Positions 36,152-50,724 of a stretch of 64,000 nucleotides of DNA are shown piece after piece. A program made the translations under genes and the position numbers. Every line of letters begins with the position of its first letter. Positions within the stretch are counted from its first letter, which is position 1. The DNA is taken from the NCBI RefSeq assembly GCF_020966755.1, contig NZ_JAJKFT010000010.1, positions 310,001 through 374,000 on the forward strand, in the 5' to 3' direction. Below the pieces are notes generated by a model, which had not been told where the DNA came from, made no database searches, and saw only the letters and a list, made by a program, of their open reading frames with translations. Source of the stretch: Blastopirellula sediminis (lineage in GTDB: Bacteria; Planctomycetota; Planctomycetia; Pirellulales; Pirellulaceae).

Positions 36152-39100
36152 TTAGATCGACTTGTCGACCGGCTCATTGACCGGGATCGTCAAGTTCTGC
36201 CGCACCTCCAGGCCGTTGACCGTCATCACCGAGACGCCGGCGCCGGTAACGGAGCTGGAGTCGAAGATCGCCGCCGGGACCTTCACGTCGGCAAGCCATT
36301 TCAGCACGTTTTTCCATTGCTGAACACGGAAGTATTCGGACAAGCGGGCCCCTGGGGGAATGCCGCGAGTGATCAAATCGGCATGCGTCTTTTCCCGAAT
36401 CTCGTCGGTCCAGACCAGCTTGCCGTCTCCATTGGTGATGCGCAGCGCGCCGACCACTTCGGTAACCTGGATTGATTCGACGAAAAGCTGACCGATTACC
36501 CGCAGACGGAGCGACTCCGGCGTCAGTTTCTCTCGCACTTCAATCGTCAGGACGTACTGCGCGTCAGGATCGGGATTGTAACCGGCATTCAGAGCTTTAG
36601 CGACGAAGAGGTCCTGCAGCTCTTTCGCCAGGTTGTTACGTTGCAAGTCAAGCGTGGGAACTTCCGCGTCGACGCGAATCCCGAGACGATCGCCGCTCGC
36701 TAACATCGGAGCCAGCGGCTGCAGATCGTCGATCAACTCGGCGTCTTCCGGCTGCGGCAATTGAACGGCGCGAACCGTTGAGTCGGTTTGATTCGTATCG
36801 CCGGCGACGTACCACTGCCGTCCGTCCGACCCACGGAATCCGACGGCCCCGAACGGTAGCAAATAATTCCAACCGATCCGCTCCGACGGCAAGTGAATCG
36901 CGACCAGGTGGGCGGCGACGGTCAATTCTTTGATCCGGGAAAGGACGCGAACCAGCACCACGTCGTCCGATCCCCACGAGATATCAAGCGGCTTGTAAGG
37001 AAACGGGAACGACTTCTCCACGTTGTTGGCGACCAGATCCCAAACGAGAATCCGCTGAGCGTCTTCGCCGACGTAGCAAGCCATGACCAGCTTGCGGCCG
37101 TCGTCGGAAAAGGCCAACTTGCCGGCCGCGGTGAATTTTTCGACCCCTGGACTGGCGAGCGTTCCCAACATCGCGCCCGAGTCGGCGTCCAGCAATTCCA
37201 TCTTCTGCGGCGAGGCGACGCAAAGCGTGCGACCGCTGGGCGAGGATTGCAGACGGGTCGATTTGCCGTACATCCGTCGCGCAACGACGCGACATTCCGG
37301 CAGTTTCCACTGCGTCAGTTCGCCGTCAACCGAAAGGACCCACAGGGTCGAATTGCCCGAACCGAACTCCAGCGCCGCGATCTGGCCGCGACTGTTTTGA
37401 AACGGACGAAACGCGACCGCCGGTTTGCCGGTCGTCAGATCGAAGAGATCGACCCGCTCTTTGTTGTCCTTGTCGGCGAACGCCGCCCAATCGCCGGTTG
37501 GCGCGATCGCCATCAACTGGGTTGCGAACGGCAGCTTCGTCCGCATCAGCGGCTTGCCGGTTTTCAAATCGACCAGGTCGAAGTATTGCTCGTCGATGAT
37601 CGACATGTTTCGCAAGCGACGACTCTCCTCCGGTTCGCGCAGGCCAATCAAGGCGCGATTGGAAGGGCGGCACACATACATGTGCCCCAATTGCGGAAAG
37701 TTCGCCAAGACTCGGGCGCCGTCATGCAGCGTTCCGTCGGCTACCGTCGGCGCCGCATCGGGTTGATACTTCCATTGAATGTCGGTGACGATCTCCTGGA
37801 TTCGGTCATCGACGATCGGGGTCAGCGGCGGCAAACCTTGATCAAAGGCAGTCGCGCCGCTGGCGATCATTTCGCGATTCGATTTCAACGTTTCGCTGGA
37901 AATCTCTCCCAGCGTCAATGTCAGTTTGCGATCGGCGTCGTGATTGAAGTCGAGAAAGCGGTCGTTATCGACGAAGCGTCGCGGCTGCCCCTGACCGGTG
38001 GTGGTTTTGGTCGTCGTATCGGCCCAGACAATCGCCGGTGAGGTCCGCTCGACGAACACCCTGCCGGAAATCAACCAGCCGCTCCGATCGAAACGCCATT
38101 CCAGCGGTCGATCGCTGTAGTAAGAACTGCCGGTTCCCTTGCGGCCTGGATCTTCGGGAAAGTTCAGCTCTACCCCTTTTTGACCCGTTCGCATGTCCCA
38201 GGTAATCAGATGTTTGCCGCTGCCAAGGTTGGAGTAGAGGAGCAGCTCTTCTCCATCGGGAGAAAAGCTCAGGTATTTTCCAAACGCCCAGTTAGGGATT
38301 TGCCCGGCGCCGCCGACCTGTCCCGCTTCGATCCCGGTACGCAAATCGTAGATGCGCACGGTCTTGTCCGTTGTGGAGTTGAGTGCGGCGTAAGAACCGC
38401 CAGGACTGACGGCCAGCAATTCGTCTTGATAGTAGTGGTCGATCGATACTTGGCAAAGCTTGCGGCCGGTCGCGATATCAAAACATTGGAGCGAACGGTC
38501 GCTCGCATTGCCAATCAGAATCCGGTCCGGGCCGACAAAACGGACCGAAGTTAAAGAACTGACCGAGTCGCCGGAAGTGAACGCACGAACCATGTGGCCG
38601 GTTGCAAACGACCAGACTTGAACTTCGAGTTTGTTGGTTGCAGAGTTGCGAACCGTAGCGGCGAAGTAGTGACCATCAACACTATAAGCGATGTTTTGAT
38701 AGAGCGACGAATTGAAGTGAAGCGAGCCAGCCAGCTTCTGCGTCGGCAGATGGAACGCGAAAAAGTTCTTCGAGCTTTCTTCAAAGAAAACGAAATGGCT
38801 CGGGTGCTCGGGGAATTGCGGTTTAAGCGAATAACTTTTCTGCGGCGCACTCGATTTGACGGTCTTCTCTTGCGGAAGCGCAAACACGAACGGATTAGGA
38901 TCGGCCGAAGCTTGCCAATCGAGTTGCTCGGTAGTCGCCGGCGGCGGCGCTTGTGCGTCGGTCCGCGGCATCGTCGGATAATTTCCCAGGTCGTCCTTCG
39001 CCGAGAACGAACCGACAGGCGACGCCGGGTTGGCGGCGGCCGGCGTCATCGCCGGTGAGGAAGTCGCCGGTTCATTGCTCGGCGCGCGCGGCGGCGAAAA

Positions 39101-39388
39101 ACCAGAGGAGGAAGGCGCTCCGGCAGCTGGCGCCGACATGCCGCCGGTGATCGCTTTGGTGAGTCGTTCGAGCTCTGCGTGGACGAAGCGCACGTCTTCC
39201 AGGCTCAGCTTGTCGAGCGGCACCGAGATCTCTTGCCCGTTGTCGTCCCGCTTTAAAACGGCGGCGCCATTTCGAACGTCGACCAGTTCCGCTTTGACCG
39301 AAAAGCCTCCTTCGCGCGCATGCCACTCACGGGCTGTCGCAGGGACGGCAAAACCAAGCAAGAGAAGGGAAAAGAGAAACCCGCGCAC
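36152..39388 (-). CDS. large secreted SHD1/WD40-like protein, ~1078 aa
   Basis: The protein has a signal peptide (GFLFSLLLLGFAVPATA) and then an SHD1 (Sla1 homology) domain, EWHAREGGFSVKAELVDVRNG to VPLDKLSLEDVRFV. A Pro/Ser-rich linker (~80-170) leads to long beta-propeller-like repeats with WD40-type strands (KLEVQVWSFATGHMVRAF, LQCFDIATGRKL, ITWDMRTGQKGVEL, DLTTGKPAVAF). The last ~170 residues form a separate domain with VLTIEVREKLTPE. Planctomycetes have a large set of such SHD1-repeat proteins, whose role is unknown. A GTG at 39388 is used as start; a TTG two codons upstream is also possible. The gene overlaps nothing and precedes the small membrane gene. Confidence 0.82.
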   Translation of the reverse strand: MRGFLFSLLLLGFAVPATAREWHAREGGFSVKAELVDVRNGAAVLKRDDNGQEISVPLDKLSLEDVRFVHAELERLTKAITGGMSAPAAGAPSSSGFSPPRAPSNEPATSSPAMTPAAANPASPVGSFSAKDDLGNYPTMPRTDAQAPPPATTEQLDWQASADPNPFVFALPQEKTVKSSAPQKSYSLKPQFPEHPSHFVFFEESSKNFFAFHLPTQKLAGSLHFNSSLYQNIAYSVDGHYFAATVRNSATNKLEVQVWSFATGHMVRAFTSGDSVSSLTSVRFVGPDRILIGNASDRSLQCFDIATGRKLCQVSIDHYYQDELLAVSPGGSYAALNSTTDKTVRIYDLRTGIEAGQVGGAGQIPNWAFGKYLSFSPDGEELLLYSNLGSGKHLITWDMRTGQKGVELNFPEDPGRKGTGSSYYSDRPLEWRFDRSGWLISGRVFVERTSPAIVWADTTTKTTTGQGQPRRFVDNDRFLDFNHDADRKLTLTLGEISSETLKSNREMIASGATAFDQGLPPLTPIVDDRIQEIVTDIQWKYQPDAAPTVADGTLHDGARVLANFPQLGHMYVCRPSNRALIGLREPEESRRLRNMSIIDEQYFDLVDLKTGKPLMRTKLPFATQLMAIAPTGDWAAFADKDNKERVDLFDLTTGKPAVAFRPFQNSRGQIAALEFGSGNSTLWVLSVDGELTQWKLPECRVVARRMYGKSTRLQSSPSGRTLCVASPQKMELLDADSGAMLGTLASPGVEKFTAAGKLAFSDDGRKLVMACYVGEDAQRILVWDLVANNVEKSFPFPYKPLDISWGSDDVVLVRVLSRIKELTVAAHLVAIHLPSERIGWNYLLPFGAVGFRGSDGRQWYVAGDTNQTDSTVRAVQLPQPEDAELIDDLQPLAPMLASGDRLGIRVDAEVPTLDLQRNNLAKELQDLFVAKALNAGYNPDPDAQYVLTIEVREKLTPESLRLRVIGQLFVESIQVTEVVGALRITNGDGKLVWTDEIREKTHADLITRGIPPGARLSEYFRVQQWKNVLKWLADVKVPAAIFDSSSVTGAGVSVMTVNGLEVRQNLTIPVNEPVDKSI

Positions 39389-39566
39389 GGCCAACTGCCC
39401 CGATTTGAGATAAGAAAAGATGCCTCGGGGGCAAGCTGGCTACTCTGCCCCCCACCCGATGGTAACCCATTGCAAGGGGCAGGTCAAAAGGAGTGTTTCA
39501 GCCGTCAAACATCGGCAATAGTGACCGCCAGCGGGGACGGCCCTTCGCCTATCGGCAAGATCCCGC

Positions 39567-46514: not shown

Positions 46515-46856
46515 TTAGATCGCGCAGCCGCAAGCGGTGCACTCGCACGACGCGCAACTGCAAGCTTCGCCGTCGCAGCACTGGCATCCCGCTTCACACG
46601 CGCAAGCGGTTTCGCACGGGCAAGCCGAGCAGGCGGCGGCAGTCGACGTTGTAGTCGTCGCCGCATCTTTCGTCATGTCGCAACCGCACTTCTCGCACTT
46701 GCAAACGTCGCACGAGCAAGTGACGCCGTCGCAGTCAGGACATGCGCAGTTGACGCACTCACACTTCTTCGCGGCGGAAGCCGTATCGGCCGCAGCCCAA
46801 GAAAACATCCCCAGCGAAAACGTGAAGAGCGCAGCCAAAACCAGCAAACTTTTCAT
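46515..46856 (-). CDS. secreted cysteine-rich metallothionein-like protein
   Basis: The product (113 residues, ATG at 46856) has a signal peptide (LLVLAALFTFSLGMFSWAAA) and a mature part with 25 Cys in ~85 residues, mostly as CxC and CxxC pairs: KKCECVNCACPDCDG, CSCDVCKCEKCGCD, then a Thr/Ala spacer (TTTTSTAA), then CSACPCETACACEAGC and CSCASCECTACGCAI. Only two runs lack Cys. This is the plan of metal-binding clusters, but it matches no known metallothionein I can name. It probably binds Cu, Zn or Cd in the periplasm or outside. It precedes another Cys-rich protein gene on the same strand. Confidence 0.8.
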   Translation of the reverse strand: MKSLLVLAALFTFSLGMFSWAAADTASAAKKCECVNCACPDCDGVTCSCDVCKCEKCGCDMTKDAATTTTSTAAACSACPCETACACEAGCQCCDGEACSCASCECTACGCAI

Positions 46857-46922
46857 GGTAAAAATCTCCAAGAGAAATCGTTAAACAGAATCAAAATCGA
46901 AGTTGTCAGCGCAACGTTCGAT

Positions 46923-47363
46923 TTAATTCCGCCAACGACAATGGAGAACTTGCAGAGAAACGCCGCCGTCGAGCAAGCCTGCGTCGCGATCATTGGTCGG
47001 CAGCGTCCGTGACGCTGGATCCAAAGCGACGGGACTCGTCCAGGCGAACAAATCGACCGGCAGATGAACTTCGCTGGCGGAGGCCGGCGCCAACGGCATT
47101 TCGGCCGGTTCAACGCAACAAGAGCAGCCGTCGCAGGTCGGTCCTGCGAGATTTTCTTCCGTGGTCTGTTGGCAGCAACTTCTTTCCACAACGCCGCAGC
47201 AGGAACGGACCGAGGTGCTGCAGCAAGAAGCGGCCGTGCTATGGCCGCAACTGCAAGTCGTTTCGCCCGGCGCCGCACAGAGGGGCGCAGCGCTCACCAG
47301 GCTGTTGGTCGAGCCCAAAGCGAGCCCCAACATAACCAGCAAGGTGACGACGAAACGAAACAT
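46923..47363 (-). CDS. secreted cysteine-rich protein, 146 aa
   Basis: This protein (ATG at 47363) starts MFRFVVTLLVMLGLALGS, a signal peptide, and the mature part has 14 Cys, mostly as CC pairs spaced by five residues: SCCSTSVRSCCGVVERSCCQQ, then CDGCSCC, and one near the C-terminus. After the Cys block comes a Pro/Val-rich ~60-residue domain with no Cys (ASEVHLPVDLFAWTSP). It lies 66 bp ahead of the other Cys-rich gene and is co-directional, so the two are probably an operon for metal handling. The Cys-rich pattern differs between the two, so they are not simple duplicates. Confidence 0.75.
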   Translation of the reverse strand: MFRFVVTLLVMLGLALGSTNSLVSAAPLCAAPGETTCSCGHSTAASCCSTSVRSCCGVVERSCCQQTTEENLAGPTCDGCSCCVEPAEMPLAPASASEVHLPVDLFAWTSPVALDPASRTLPTNDRDAGLLDGGVSLQVLHCRWRN

Positions 47364-47455
47364 ACGAAGATCCAGACAGGACGGATTGCTCTCGGACGGC
47401 AGAATCGTACGCACTGTCCGTCACAGAGGCAATCCAGATTTGTCGAAGGACGCGA

Positions 47456-48931
47456 CTAGCGAGGCTGTCGAGGCATTTTCTCGCCCAAGGTTTCAATCAG
47501 ATGGGCCGCTTTAGAGTACGGCTTGGCGCCGCCTCCGGTTCGCGTCCCCCCTTCCGGCAAACCGATGTCGTCGCCGGAAACGCGCATTTCCCAGTAGATG
47601 TCGGTATTGCGCGGGATTTCCGCGAAGCTCAATACCGATACCCGCGGCAAGTGCGTCGCCATCATCCGCCACAAGTGGGAACGGAGGTCGATCGACGTGA
47701 CCAGCGCCGTCGGCTGTTGCTGTTCTTCCAGTTGATGGAAGCTGTCGATCAGGTTATCCATCAAACGTTCGACCCACGGGCGCGCCTTGCGGCCGGCGCT
47801 GGCGTCATTCAGTTCCAGCAGGCGTTCTTCCAGTTCCGGTTCCAAACCGATCGCGTGAACCCGACCGTCACGGTCCAGGTAACGCTGGCAAATCTGGCGT
47901 CCCAGACGAACGCGGACCGCCGCGACCAATAGTTCGATATCGCCGGTCCGAGCGCCATGGCGAACGAGCGTTTCCAGAATGCGGGAGAAGTTCTTGATCG
48001 AGACCTGCTCTTCCAGCAGCCGCACCAACACGGCGTGGATTGTCGACAGCGAGAGCGGGCTCGCTCGCAGTTCTTCGACCTCGGCCGACTGCGCGTCGCG
48101 CTGCATTTCGATCAGGCTGCGAACGTCGTCCAGGGTGAGCATCTCGTGAGCGAAGCGGCGAAGCGTCTCTTGCAAATGGGTGACCAGCAGCATCCCCGGT
48201 TCGATGACCAGGTAGCCGCCTTTCTCCGCTTCGCGCTGTTGATCGGCGCGAATCCAAATCCCTGGCCCCCCAAACGTCGGATCGACGCCAGGCGTACCCT
48301 CGAGCGTTTCGGTCGCGGTTCCCATGTCGAGCGCGATATGGCGCCCCGGGCCAAAGCGGGCGCGGGCGATTTCGTTTTCGTCAATCAGGAACCGGTATTC
48401 GTTGTCTCCCAGCTGGCGACTGTCGCGCATCCGAATCTTCGGCACGACGATTCCGAGCGAATCGGCCAACTGGCAGCGGACGGCGGTCATCCGGTCGAAA
48501 AAGTCTTTCGACTCGGGAGAGATGATCGAGACCAATGACGGCCCAACTTCCAGCGTCAGCCGATCCATTTCGAGGTAAGAACGCCACGGATCGGACGTTT
48601 CGGGAGCGGCCGGCACGACGTTCTCTTTCTCGTCCGCTTCGGTAAACCAGGAAGGCTTACCGTGGTCGGGGACGACCGGAATGTCGAGCAGCTCTTCGTC
48701 GCCGCAGCTGATCGCGACGATGTGATGAAAGTGAACAAGCGCTTCCTGGCCGTGATGATCGCCATCGACGCTCCAAGAGACGTCGTCGGCGTCCCCCTGA
48801 GTGCTGGCGTTAATCAGCCGGACGCAGTCGTCGTAGATCGCGGCGACTTCGCCGCGGAGCTTGATATGACCGAAGGTCGAGACGCAAACTTCCCTGCCGA
48901 TGTATCGTGAAAGAATCGAGGAGTAATCCAT
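47456..48931 (-). CDS. soluble FHIPEP (FlhA C-terminal domain) protein with Sm-like N-terminal domain
   Basis: The 491-residue protein lacks membrane helices. Residues ~1-80 (SRYIGREVCVSTFGHIKLRGEV, later ALVHFHHIVAISCG) read like an LSm fold with its two Sm motifs. Residues ~135-480 match the cytoplasmic domain of the flagellar/type III export gate FlhA: SLGIVVPKIRMRDSRQLGDN, GTPGVDPTFGGPGIWI, LLVTHLQETLRRFAHEML, LSLSTIHAVLVRLLEEQVSIKNFSRILETLV, and PRVSVLSFAEIP. The family's eight N-terminal membrane helices are absent, and no flagellar gene is in the window. It may serve as a scaffold or RNA-linked regulator rather than an export gate. The ATG at 48931 begins MDYSSIL; an upstream start at 48979 adds no domain. 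Confidence 0.85.
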   Translation of the reverse strand: MDYSSILSRYIGREVCVSTFGHIKLRGEVAAIYDDCVRLINASTQGDADDVSWSVDGDHHGQEALVHFHHIVAISCGDEELLDIPVVPDHGKPSWFTEADEKENVVPAAPETSDPWRSYLEMDRLTLEVGPSLVSIISPESKDFFDRMTAVRCQLADSLGIVVPKIRMRDSRQLGDNEYRFLIDENEIARARFGPGRHIALDMGTATETLEGTPGVDPTFGGPGIWIRADQQREAEKGGYLVIEPGMLLVTHLQETLRRFAHEMLTLDDVRSLIEMQRDAQSAEVEELRASPLSLSTIHAVLVRLLEEQVSIKNFSRILETLVRHGARTGDIELLVAAVRVRLGRQICQRYLDRDGRVHAIGLEPELEERLLELNDASAGRKARPWVERLMDNLIDSFHQLEEQQQPTALVTSIDLRSHLWRMMATHLPRVSVLSFAEIPRNTDIYWEMRVSGDDIGLPEGGTRTGGGAKPYSKAAHLIETLGEKMPRQPR

Positions 48932-49380
48932 CGATGCGCCCCTACCTGTCTTGACTAGGAATCTGCAGTCGTTTCGCAAACGAAACGTTATCAGTGATTC
49001 TAGTTACAACTCGAACGGAGCGGCAACCTTTTGCTTGAGCCAAAATCGGCTGGGCGTACGATAATCGGGAACATCGCGTTCCGTTTGCGACGATTTCACC
49101 GGCCAACCGGGTTAAAAAAGATACGAAGAAATTTACTGGTTCGTATGGACAATTGCCGCCGTAAAGCCTTAGAACATGGGCATCAGTCAGACGACGCCAC
49201 GCGATGCGGCTCTCCGCCGCTTGCATGCTAGTTTGCTGGCGCCGAACTAATCCCACATGGAAGTAACGTCGTCGACGGACGATGAAGGGAGGCGAAATGA
49301 GAATTCTTCGGCTATCCGGGTGAGTTGGATTTGACCGTCTAAGGAACTGTCAATCTAGTTTCGCTCAGGATCAAAACCGT
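48932..49380. other. 449-bp gene-free interval
   Basis: This interval lies between the divergent FHIPEP-domain gene and the PIN-PhoH gene and should hold both promoters. A 7-bp hairpin with a 4-base loop, CGTTTCG (48970-48976) and CGAAACG (48981-48987), lies near the FHIPEP side. I see no RNA gene or repeat in the rest. Confidence 0.5.
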
Positions 49381-50724
49381 ATGATTGATCACGTGGGCCA
49401 ACAGCTTCCGAAGCTGTTTGTGCTGGACACCAACGTCCTTCTTCACGACGCCAAAAGTTTCCGTAATTTTGAAGACAACGATGTCGTTATCCCGATCACG
49501 GTCCTAGAAGAGCTGGACCGATTCAAAAAAGGAAATGAAGACATTCATTTCCAAGCTCGCGAGTTTCTCCGCCAAATCGACCTGCTCACAGGCGATATTC
49601 TCTCAGAAGCCGGCGCCTCTCTCGGCGAAGGATGCGGCAAGTTGCGAGTGGTCTTCTGCCACGAACAGGACGCCCGGCTTAATCGCGTCTTTATCTCCGA
49701 TTCTCCCGACAATCGCATTCTTAACACGGGTCTCTTTTTACAACGCACGTCGCCCGAACGGCGCGTGATCCTGATTTCTAAAGACACTAACCTGCGGATG
49801 AAGGCGAAGAGCCTTGGCTTGCAAGCGCAAGACTATATCAACGACAAGATTGAAAGTTGCGACAAGCTCTACACAGGTCGCCGCATCGTCGAAAACATTT
49901 CGACGGAGCAGATCGATCGTTTCTTCCAAAATGGCGGCGCCGTCGACGCCGTCGATTTCCCGGAGGTGCAACAGCCGACCGCCAATGAAAACTTCGTGCT
50001 CCGTAACGGCTCCAAATCGGTGTTGGCAACGTTTAACGCCGGCAACCAAATCCTGCAGCGCGTCGAGAAATTCGCCCCCTACGGGATCAAGCCGCGCAAC
50101 GCCGAACAGTTGTTCGCCATCAAGGCGCTGCTCGACGACGATATAAAGCTCGTTACCCTCGCCGGCAAAGCGGGGACCGGGAAAACGATCCTGGCGCTCG
50201 CATCAGCGCTCGAATGCTCTTCCCAATATCGGCAGATCTTGTTGGCCCGTCCGGTCGTTCCTCTTTCCAATAAGGATCTCGGTTACCTCCCCGGCGACAT
50301 TTCCGCCAAGCTTGATCCCTACATGCAACCGCTGTTCGACAATCTCTCCGTGATTCGACATCAGTTCGGCGAGAACGATAAGCAAGCGCAAAAGATCAAT
50401 CGCATGCTGGAAATGGAAAAGCTGGTGATCACGCCGCTGGCGTACATTCGCGGACGCAGTTTGCAGCGGATGTACATGATCGTCGACGAAGCGCAAAACC
50501 TGACGCCGCACGAAGTGAAAACGATCATCACCCGCGCCGGCGAAGGGACCAAAGTGATTTTGACCGGCGACGTCCAGCAGATTGACCACCCGTACCTCGA
50601 TTCCCTTTCCAACGGATTGTCGTACCTGATCAATCGGATGGTCGGCCAACCCCTTTACGCGCATATCAGCCTGGAGAAGGGGGAACGGTCCGATCTGGCC
50701 GATCTAGCGAGCGAACTGCTGTAG
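49381..50724 (+). CDS. PIN-domain PhoH-like ATPase (YlaK type)
   Basis: This 447-residue protein combines a PIN nuclease-like domain at ~10-140 ([32 protein letters not shown], with the conserved acidic residues) with a PhoH ATPase domain (Walker [17 protein letters not shown]; Walker [26 protein letters not shown]). PhoH2-type proteins act as RNA helicase-nucleases in some bacteria. The gene is followed by a terminator at 50788. The ATG at 49381 gives a start two residues before the domain pattern begins. No toxin-antitoxin partner is adjacent. Confidence 0.94.

Follow-up and report, generated by a model that had tools for sequence, protein, structure and literature searches.

A soluble FlhA-type domain joined to a putative Sm-like domain in Planctomycetota, encoded alongside canonical FlhA

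In the flagellar export gate, chaperones dock on the cytoplasmic domain of FlhA (FlhA-C), a module that, as far as we are aware, has been reported only as the soluble portion of a membrane protein. In Blastopirellula sediminis, from a phylum in which the regulation of flagella has received little attention, one gene encodes such a domain without the membrane half and behind an N-terminal segment with a likeness to Sm proteins, raising the question of whether this protein still serves the flagellum. The window analyzed is a stretch of 64,000 nucleotides (C10:310001-374000) of a 7.05-Mb genome, which we placed with G080 in genus group g1. The features discussed below, in window coordinates, are:

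47456..48931, minus strand: Sm-like / FlhA-C fusion gene, 491 aa plus stop
48698..48931, minus strand: putative N-terminal Sm-like domain, residues 1-78, from profile matches
48581..48697, minus strand: variable linker, residues 79-117, with raised dN
47597..48580, minus strand: FlhA cytoplasmic domain, residues 118-445, from PF00771, PDB 3mix/7ctn and Foldseek 6ch1
48179..48283, minus strand: stretch with the putative chaperone-pocket equivalents D217, F220 and T251, from the alignment to 7ctn_A
47456..47596, minus strand: C-terminal tail ending in PRQPR, from the ends of the family sequences
48997..49026, minus strand: sigma-70-like promoter candidate TTGCCG-N18-TAGAAT (1 found, 0.4 expected in shuffles; weak alone)
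49381..50724, plus strand: PIN + PhoH gene (PhoH2-like RNA helicase), divergent from the fusion gene

The FlhA-type soluble part

The 491-aa fusion protein, P0001, was used as query. Its start, the ATG at 48931 in the list of window ORFs, is backed by an MDY start in all 12 aligned orthologues (alignment A1). The Pfam FHIPEP family (PF00771) matches residues 101-443 with an E-value of 5.5e-76, over positions 309-656 of a profile of 657. Because the profile is covered from position 309 only, the membrane half is absent; in agreement, none of the 19-residue windows of P0001 exceeds a Kyte-Doolittle value of 1.6 (maximum 1.18), while the same test on the matched part of the resident FlhA gives 45 such windows. 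Both the FlhA cytoplasmic domain and the missing membrane part, as announced in a first-pass annotation of this DNA, are thus borne out: P0001 lacks the N-terminal multi-helix membrane domain of FlhA, and its cytoplasmic domain is homologous over the full length.

This part derives from FlhA rather than from SctV (YscV/HrcV/CdsV), the injectisome counterpart whose soluble domain is homologous. P0001 scores 277.5 bits on TIGR01398 (FlhA) and 145.9 bits on TIGR01399 (SctV), and in six remote family members the FlhA models outscore those of SctV too, so that a SctV origin was rejected. The score of 277.5 bits falls short of the equivalog cut-off of TIGR01398 (772.1 bits); P0001 stays far under the whole-protein cut-offs of both models because the membrane half is absent. 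Its top sequence matches in the PDB are FlhA cytoplasmic domains (3mix, 7ctn), and it shares 30-34% identity with the resident FlhA over the whole length of the C-terminal soluble part. A weak AlphaFold model, built on 4 sequences, has pLDDT values mostly between 54 and 80 in the FlhA-C part and largely below 50 in residues ~262-335. Foldseek run with this model ranks FlhA-C structures first (6ch1, E 2.7e-20), though with low TM-scores by query (0.31-0.33 for the best rows) and an rmsd of 10-14 A.

According to a study of Salmonella FlhA, residues D456, F459 and T490 form a site at which flagellar chaperones dock (PMC8166844). Their equivalents in P0001, with the numbering derived from the alignment to 7ctn_A, would be D217, F220 and T251, so that the pocket appears to be present. 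Counting D or E, F or Y, and T as the allowed classes, 18 of 22 paralogues have all three positions intact, namely the 14 from genus groups g1, g20 and g43 plus G068, G061, G480 and G636, and the pocket is partly lost in the other four (G058, G108, G153 and G592); each position is kept in 51/51 planctomycete FlhA rows. The fusion thus shares with FlhA the C-terminal soluble part, pocket residues mostly included. It differs in having no membrane half, in carrying the putative Sm-like domain and a PRxPR tail, and in forming a separate lineage alongside the real FlhA. The PR-x-PR terminus is found in 15 of the 22 family sequences, two of the other seven being cut by contig ends, and could represent a docking or turnover tail.

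The N-terminal domain and its stand-alone relatives

Taken alone, the N-terminus of P0001 yields weak matches to DUF6897 in Pfam (E 0.0039) and to MM0924_fam (E 0.0034), and the Pfam scan returned no match to PF01423 LSM. We built a profile from 15 family N-domains (A5) and searched with it 392 genomes of the phylum, 17 of which matched, 7 of these being fusions, and 170 genomes of the order of G480, with 13 matches including 3 fusions. The match in G754 turned out to be an unrelated kinase frame. The inspected non-fusion matches, G513 aside, belong mostly to one small-protein family with the insert DVHD.....T.E.Y.......G...NR.

This family of stand-alone proteins across Planctomycetota, about 85-100 aa long and marked by the conserved insert (in short DVHD..T.E.Y...G...NR), has Sm-like features. 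Seventeen members, some with unsure starts, were aligned (A8: L090-L096, L098, L099, L103-L109, L111), and L066 resembles the family as well. The four members scanned lie under the Pfam cut-offs, one of them reaching 22.1 bits on PF01423 LSM, whose gathering score is 23.4. At 5 of 18 stand-alone loci the upstream neighbour comes from one shared family, PDZ-like by eye.

Comparison of the fusion N-domain with the stand-alone profile by hhalign gave a probability of 97.9% and an E-value of 4.2e-13 over 90 columns. The merged profile of 29 sequences (A9), searched against PDB chains with E up to 10, returned 36 matches, 29 of them labelled Sm, LSm, snRNP or Edc3; the best labelled one is LSm2 (E 0.002). 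The other matches are 1ycy (E 1.7e-4), which we take to be of the Sm-like class, KLLA0A11308p (E 0.005), presumably Edc3, and 5 others. A profile of fusion N-domains only placed GMP synthase first (E 0.11), followed at E 0.27-1.2 by KLLA0A11308p, an Sm-domain protein, 1ycy and LSm2; the Sm assignment therefore leans on the stand-alone relatives, the profile-level homology to Sm-fold proteins seen with A9 being weaker when these are left aside. Two AlphaFold runs, again with 4 sequences only, gave a mean pLDDT of 46 for the N-domain and a model without a barrel. The likeness to Sm/LSm small barrels (Pfam LSM, DUF6897, LSm2, Edc3) lies mainly in the first half of the N-domain; the fusion N-domain differs from them in scoring under the curated cut-offs and in a longer insert before the last strands. 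With these qualifications, the family profiles support the Sm-like N-terminus proposed at first reading, and the N-domain probably belongs with Sm-like proteins.

Distribution, age and selection

Genome searches covered Planctomycetota, plus 14 control genomes and one contig scan with the N-domain. The fusion family comprises 22 genomes from 10 genera in two orders of one class, with a FHIPEP match at each fusion locus; in two of them (G061 and G636) a contig end truncates the gene. Among 241 genomes of the family Pirellulaceae the N-domain profile matched 20, of which 18 hold fusions, the remaining two being an unrelated frame in G132 and, in G685, a fragment interrupted by an in-frame stop. 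Outside this family, fusions were found in G153, from the same order, and in G480, G592 and G636, from another order of the class. In the 149 genomes sampled across the phylum, the only frame with the soluble half of FHIPEP alone that is whole and clearly off a contig end is that of the window itself. The other short FHIPEP matches in this sample have less coverage, start at contig ends or contain stops, and in G763 one full gene seems to have been broken into two adjoining FHIPEP frames. In G828, a planctomycete from a different family, the FHIPEP match (G828:C1:618126-620040) is riddled with stops and has the look of a decayed flhA.

The first-pass annotation had suggested asking whether species with the fusion have flagella. 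A canonical FHIPEP sequence is present in 22/22 fusion genomes, although G058 shows no more of it than 185 codons at the end of a contig, whereas 65 of the 149 genomes of the phylum-wide sample (33 of 88 among the good-quality ones) have no FHIPEP at all. In B. sediminis the canonical flhA (C10:2120772-2122739, an open frame of 715 aa) lies on the same contig, 1.76 Mb from the fusion gene. This resident FlhA has a soluble half of its own, which disposes of the scenario in which the fusion would merely complete a membrane part encoded elsewhere. Inside the family, coexistence with FlhA is weak evidence, because 145/149 family genomes match P0001, mostly via full-length FlhA. Most flagellated relatives lack the fusion gene and, as it occurs in only 18 of the 241 family genomes, flagella do not need it. 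As for other flagellar components, FliS was found in 12 of 14 fusion genomes tested (not in G153 and G480) and FliW in 16 of 20 (not in G058, G480, G592 and G636).

A tree of the soluble domain was computed from 72 rows, including 21 paralogues, G061 being excluded as too short. The paralogues are set apart from a 39-row FlhA group (support 100/99) that holds all 10 FlhA rows from fusion genomes. The AU test rejected an origin by recent within-genus duplication of the resident flhA (p 6.8e-8). Twelve other planctomycete FlhA rows sit on the paralogue side of the branch leading to the 39-row group, so that the fusion may descend from a second, divergent type of FlhA. A single clade for the 21 paralogues is compatible with the data (p 0.23), the free tree needing two changes. 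In the free tree G592 stands beside three FlhA rows (93/92) and long branches meet; the exact place of several paralogues is unsure because their branches are very long. Between G000 and G043 the paralogue accumulated 0.84 changes per column versus 0.25 for the resident FlhA, about three times faster.

The gene is nonetheless constrained. In seven pairs its dN/dS is 0.063-0.116, and dN by part is 0.006-0.117 for the N-domain, 0.022-0.146 for FlhA-C and 0.034-0.280 for the linker, the latter value being 0.20-0.28 in six pairs and 0.03 in the seventh. Purifying selection acts on both domains of the fusion. By these comparisons the fusion is a conserved, old lineage separate from the resident FlhA. 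We found no description of this arrangement in the open-licence PMC literature and no mention of FlhA in the accessible part of PMC2702493; judged from the sequences, it adds a new architecture to the FlhA family.

Gene context and possible function

At first reading, the gene was said to have no flagellar gene near, and this held for the neighbours scanned. Pfam flagellar families were absent from the 16 other window ORFs scanned (the window has 105 ORFs of at least 150 aa, many of them spurious) and from 10 ORFs beside the six remote members G058, G153, G108, G480, G592 and G068. Across 20 loci the only recurrent neighbour beyond single genera is the PhoH2-like gene, which is divergent from the fusion in 12/20 loci fetched, all from g1, g20 and g43; in the window its product scores 275.6 bits on the NCBIfam PhoH2 model, under the cut-off of 680. 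Directly downstream of the fusion gene lie two small cysteine-rich ORFs with apparent signal peptides (46515-46871 and 46923-47414, both minus strand), for which Pfam gave no match. Farther away, an ORF of 1080 aa (36152-39394, minus strand) has beta-propeller (WD40-type) matches and an SHD1 domain. A defence role for P0001 was dropped, no PADLOC model matching it at E 0.01.

The promoter of the fusion gene looks sigma-70-like. The candidate upstream of the window's gene has a counterpart, TTGCCG...TACAAT, upstream of the fusion gene in genus g43. Strict sigma-54 and sigma-28 patterns were found in 0/16 upstream regions of 460 nt, and we discarded both promoter types; a looser sigma-54 pattern occurs in 2 of the 16. 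In g43 the leader (~65 nt) and the first 20 codons are nearly invariant in 9 genomes (L117:8666-8789 and equivalents), the synonymous difference in these codons being 0.05 against a gene mean of 0.49, as if the fusion gene were autoregulated. The Blastopirellula group shows no such conservation at the 5' end (0.36 vs 0.44). Searches of 4 genomes with the g43 leader gave a single strong match in each. A conserved RNA fold in it was considered and dropped, with changes on both sides in 0/41 pairs, hence no covariation, and three leaders folding no better than shuffles (z -0.87, 0.33 and 0.53). The window's own leader folds somewhat better than shuffles (z -2.41, 5/200 equally good). Rfam gave no match in L117, L112 or the window.

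What, then, might the protein do? A circuit of FlhA-C with FliS-flagellin-FliW and CsrA has been proposed to tie export to the control of mRNA (PMC6070490). The pocket kept in most members, the presence of FliS and FliW in most genomes tested and this published circuit together suggest a docking protein with an RNA-linked output. We therefore favour, with a probability of only about 0.4, the reading that this soluble protein receives flagellar chaperone-substrate complexes and connects export with control at the RNA level. The FlhA-C part would bind, off the gate, export chaperones that carry late flagellar substrates (FliS-flagellin and the like); the Sm-like part would bind RNA, for example late-gene mRNA, or cluster the protein; and the occupancy by chaperone or substrate would in this way feed into post-transcriptional control or into handover to the real gate. 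RNA contacts of the N-domain are suggested by analogy with Sm proteins. The circuit of FliS, flagellin and FliW-CsrA achieves docking on FlhA-C and mRNA control through separate proteins, whereas the fusion, if our reading is right, would do so in one. In favour of the docking reading are the canonical FHIPEP in every fusion genome, the pocket in 18/22, the Sm relationship, the PhoH2-like neighbour and the purifying selection; against it are the lack of flagellar genes among the neighbours scanned, the lack of a strict flagellar-type promoter, the absence of the gene from most relatives with flagella and the pocket loss in four members. In a more specific form, for which we see rather poor odds, the protein would be a switch by itself, FlhA-C sensing loaded chaperones and the Sm-like domain binding late-gene mRNA or its own, so that flagellin synthesis would be tied to export without FliW-CsrA. 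The four fusion genomes in which the search for FliW found none bear on this form, as may the conserved 5' end in g43.

The first-pass annotation had instead envisaged a soluble ring that would be a new use of the fold, away from the flagellar gate. Recruitment of FlhA-C for a non-flagellar job, as a scaffold or in an RNA-protein particle, would agree with the neighbours scanned, none of which belongs to a flagellar family (most neighbours of g43 members lie outside the Pfam scan), with the patchy distribution (18/241), with the long branches and the partial loss of the pocket in four members, and with the PhoH2-like gene next door. The fusion was, however, never found in a genome devoid of canonical FHIPEP, and most members keep the pocket; because of these two observations a role in the flagellum is no less likely, and we hold the non-flagellar job to be somewhat unlikely. 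A flagellar role could also be played at the gate itself, the fusion joining or capping the nonameric FlhA-C ring, or competing for chaperones, and thereby modulating substrate switching, with the Sm-like part as an oligomerisation or protein-contact module that binds no RNA. The protein has the same domain as the ring subunit and coexists with FlhA, and in the alignment its Trp116 falls on Salmonella W354, a residue of the ring-stabilising linker (PMC8166844); this Trp is present in 15/22 members. However, Trp116 lies in the fast-evolving linker, which cannot be aligned with confidence, P0001 has Ser118 in place of D356, E351 falls outside the aligned stretch, and planctomycete FlhA has a Trp in the W354 column in 0/51 rows. 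The roughly threefold faster change of the paralogue than of the resident FlhA also argues against action on the gate, which we consider unlikely. Finally, the missing membrane half and the patchy distribution could be those of a decaying remnant of a duplicated flhA, or of an assembly artefact. The low dN/dS in all seven pairs, the same architecture in 10 genera, in several of them on single-contig chromosomes (e.g. G018, G128, G148 and G153), and the rejected within-genus duplication make this explanation highly improbable.

An old and selected soluble FlhA-C fused to a putative Sm-like domain would amount to a natural experiment on how this module behaves in the absence of the gate. The fusion also hints that type III export and RNA control may be directly connected in the planctomycete phylum.
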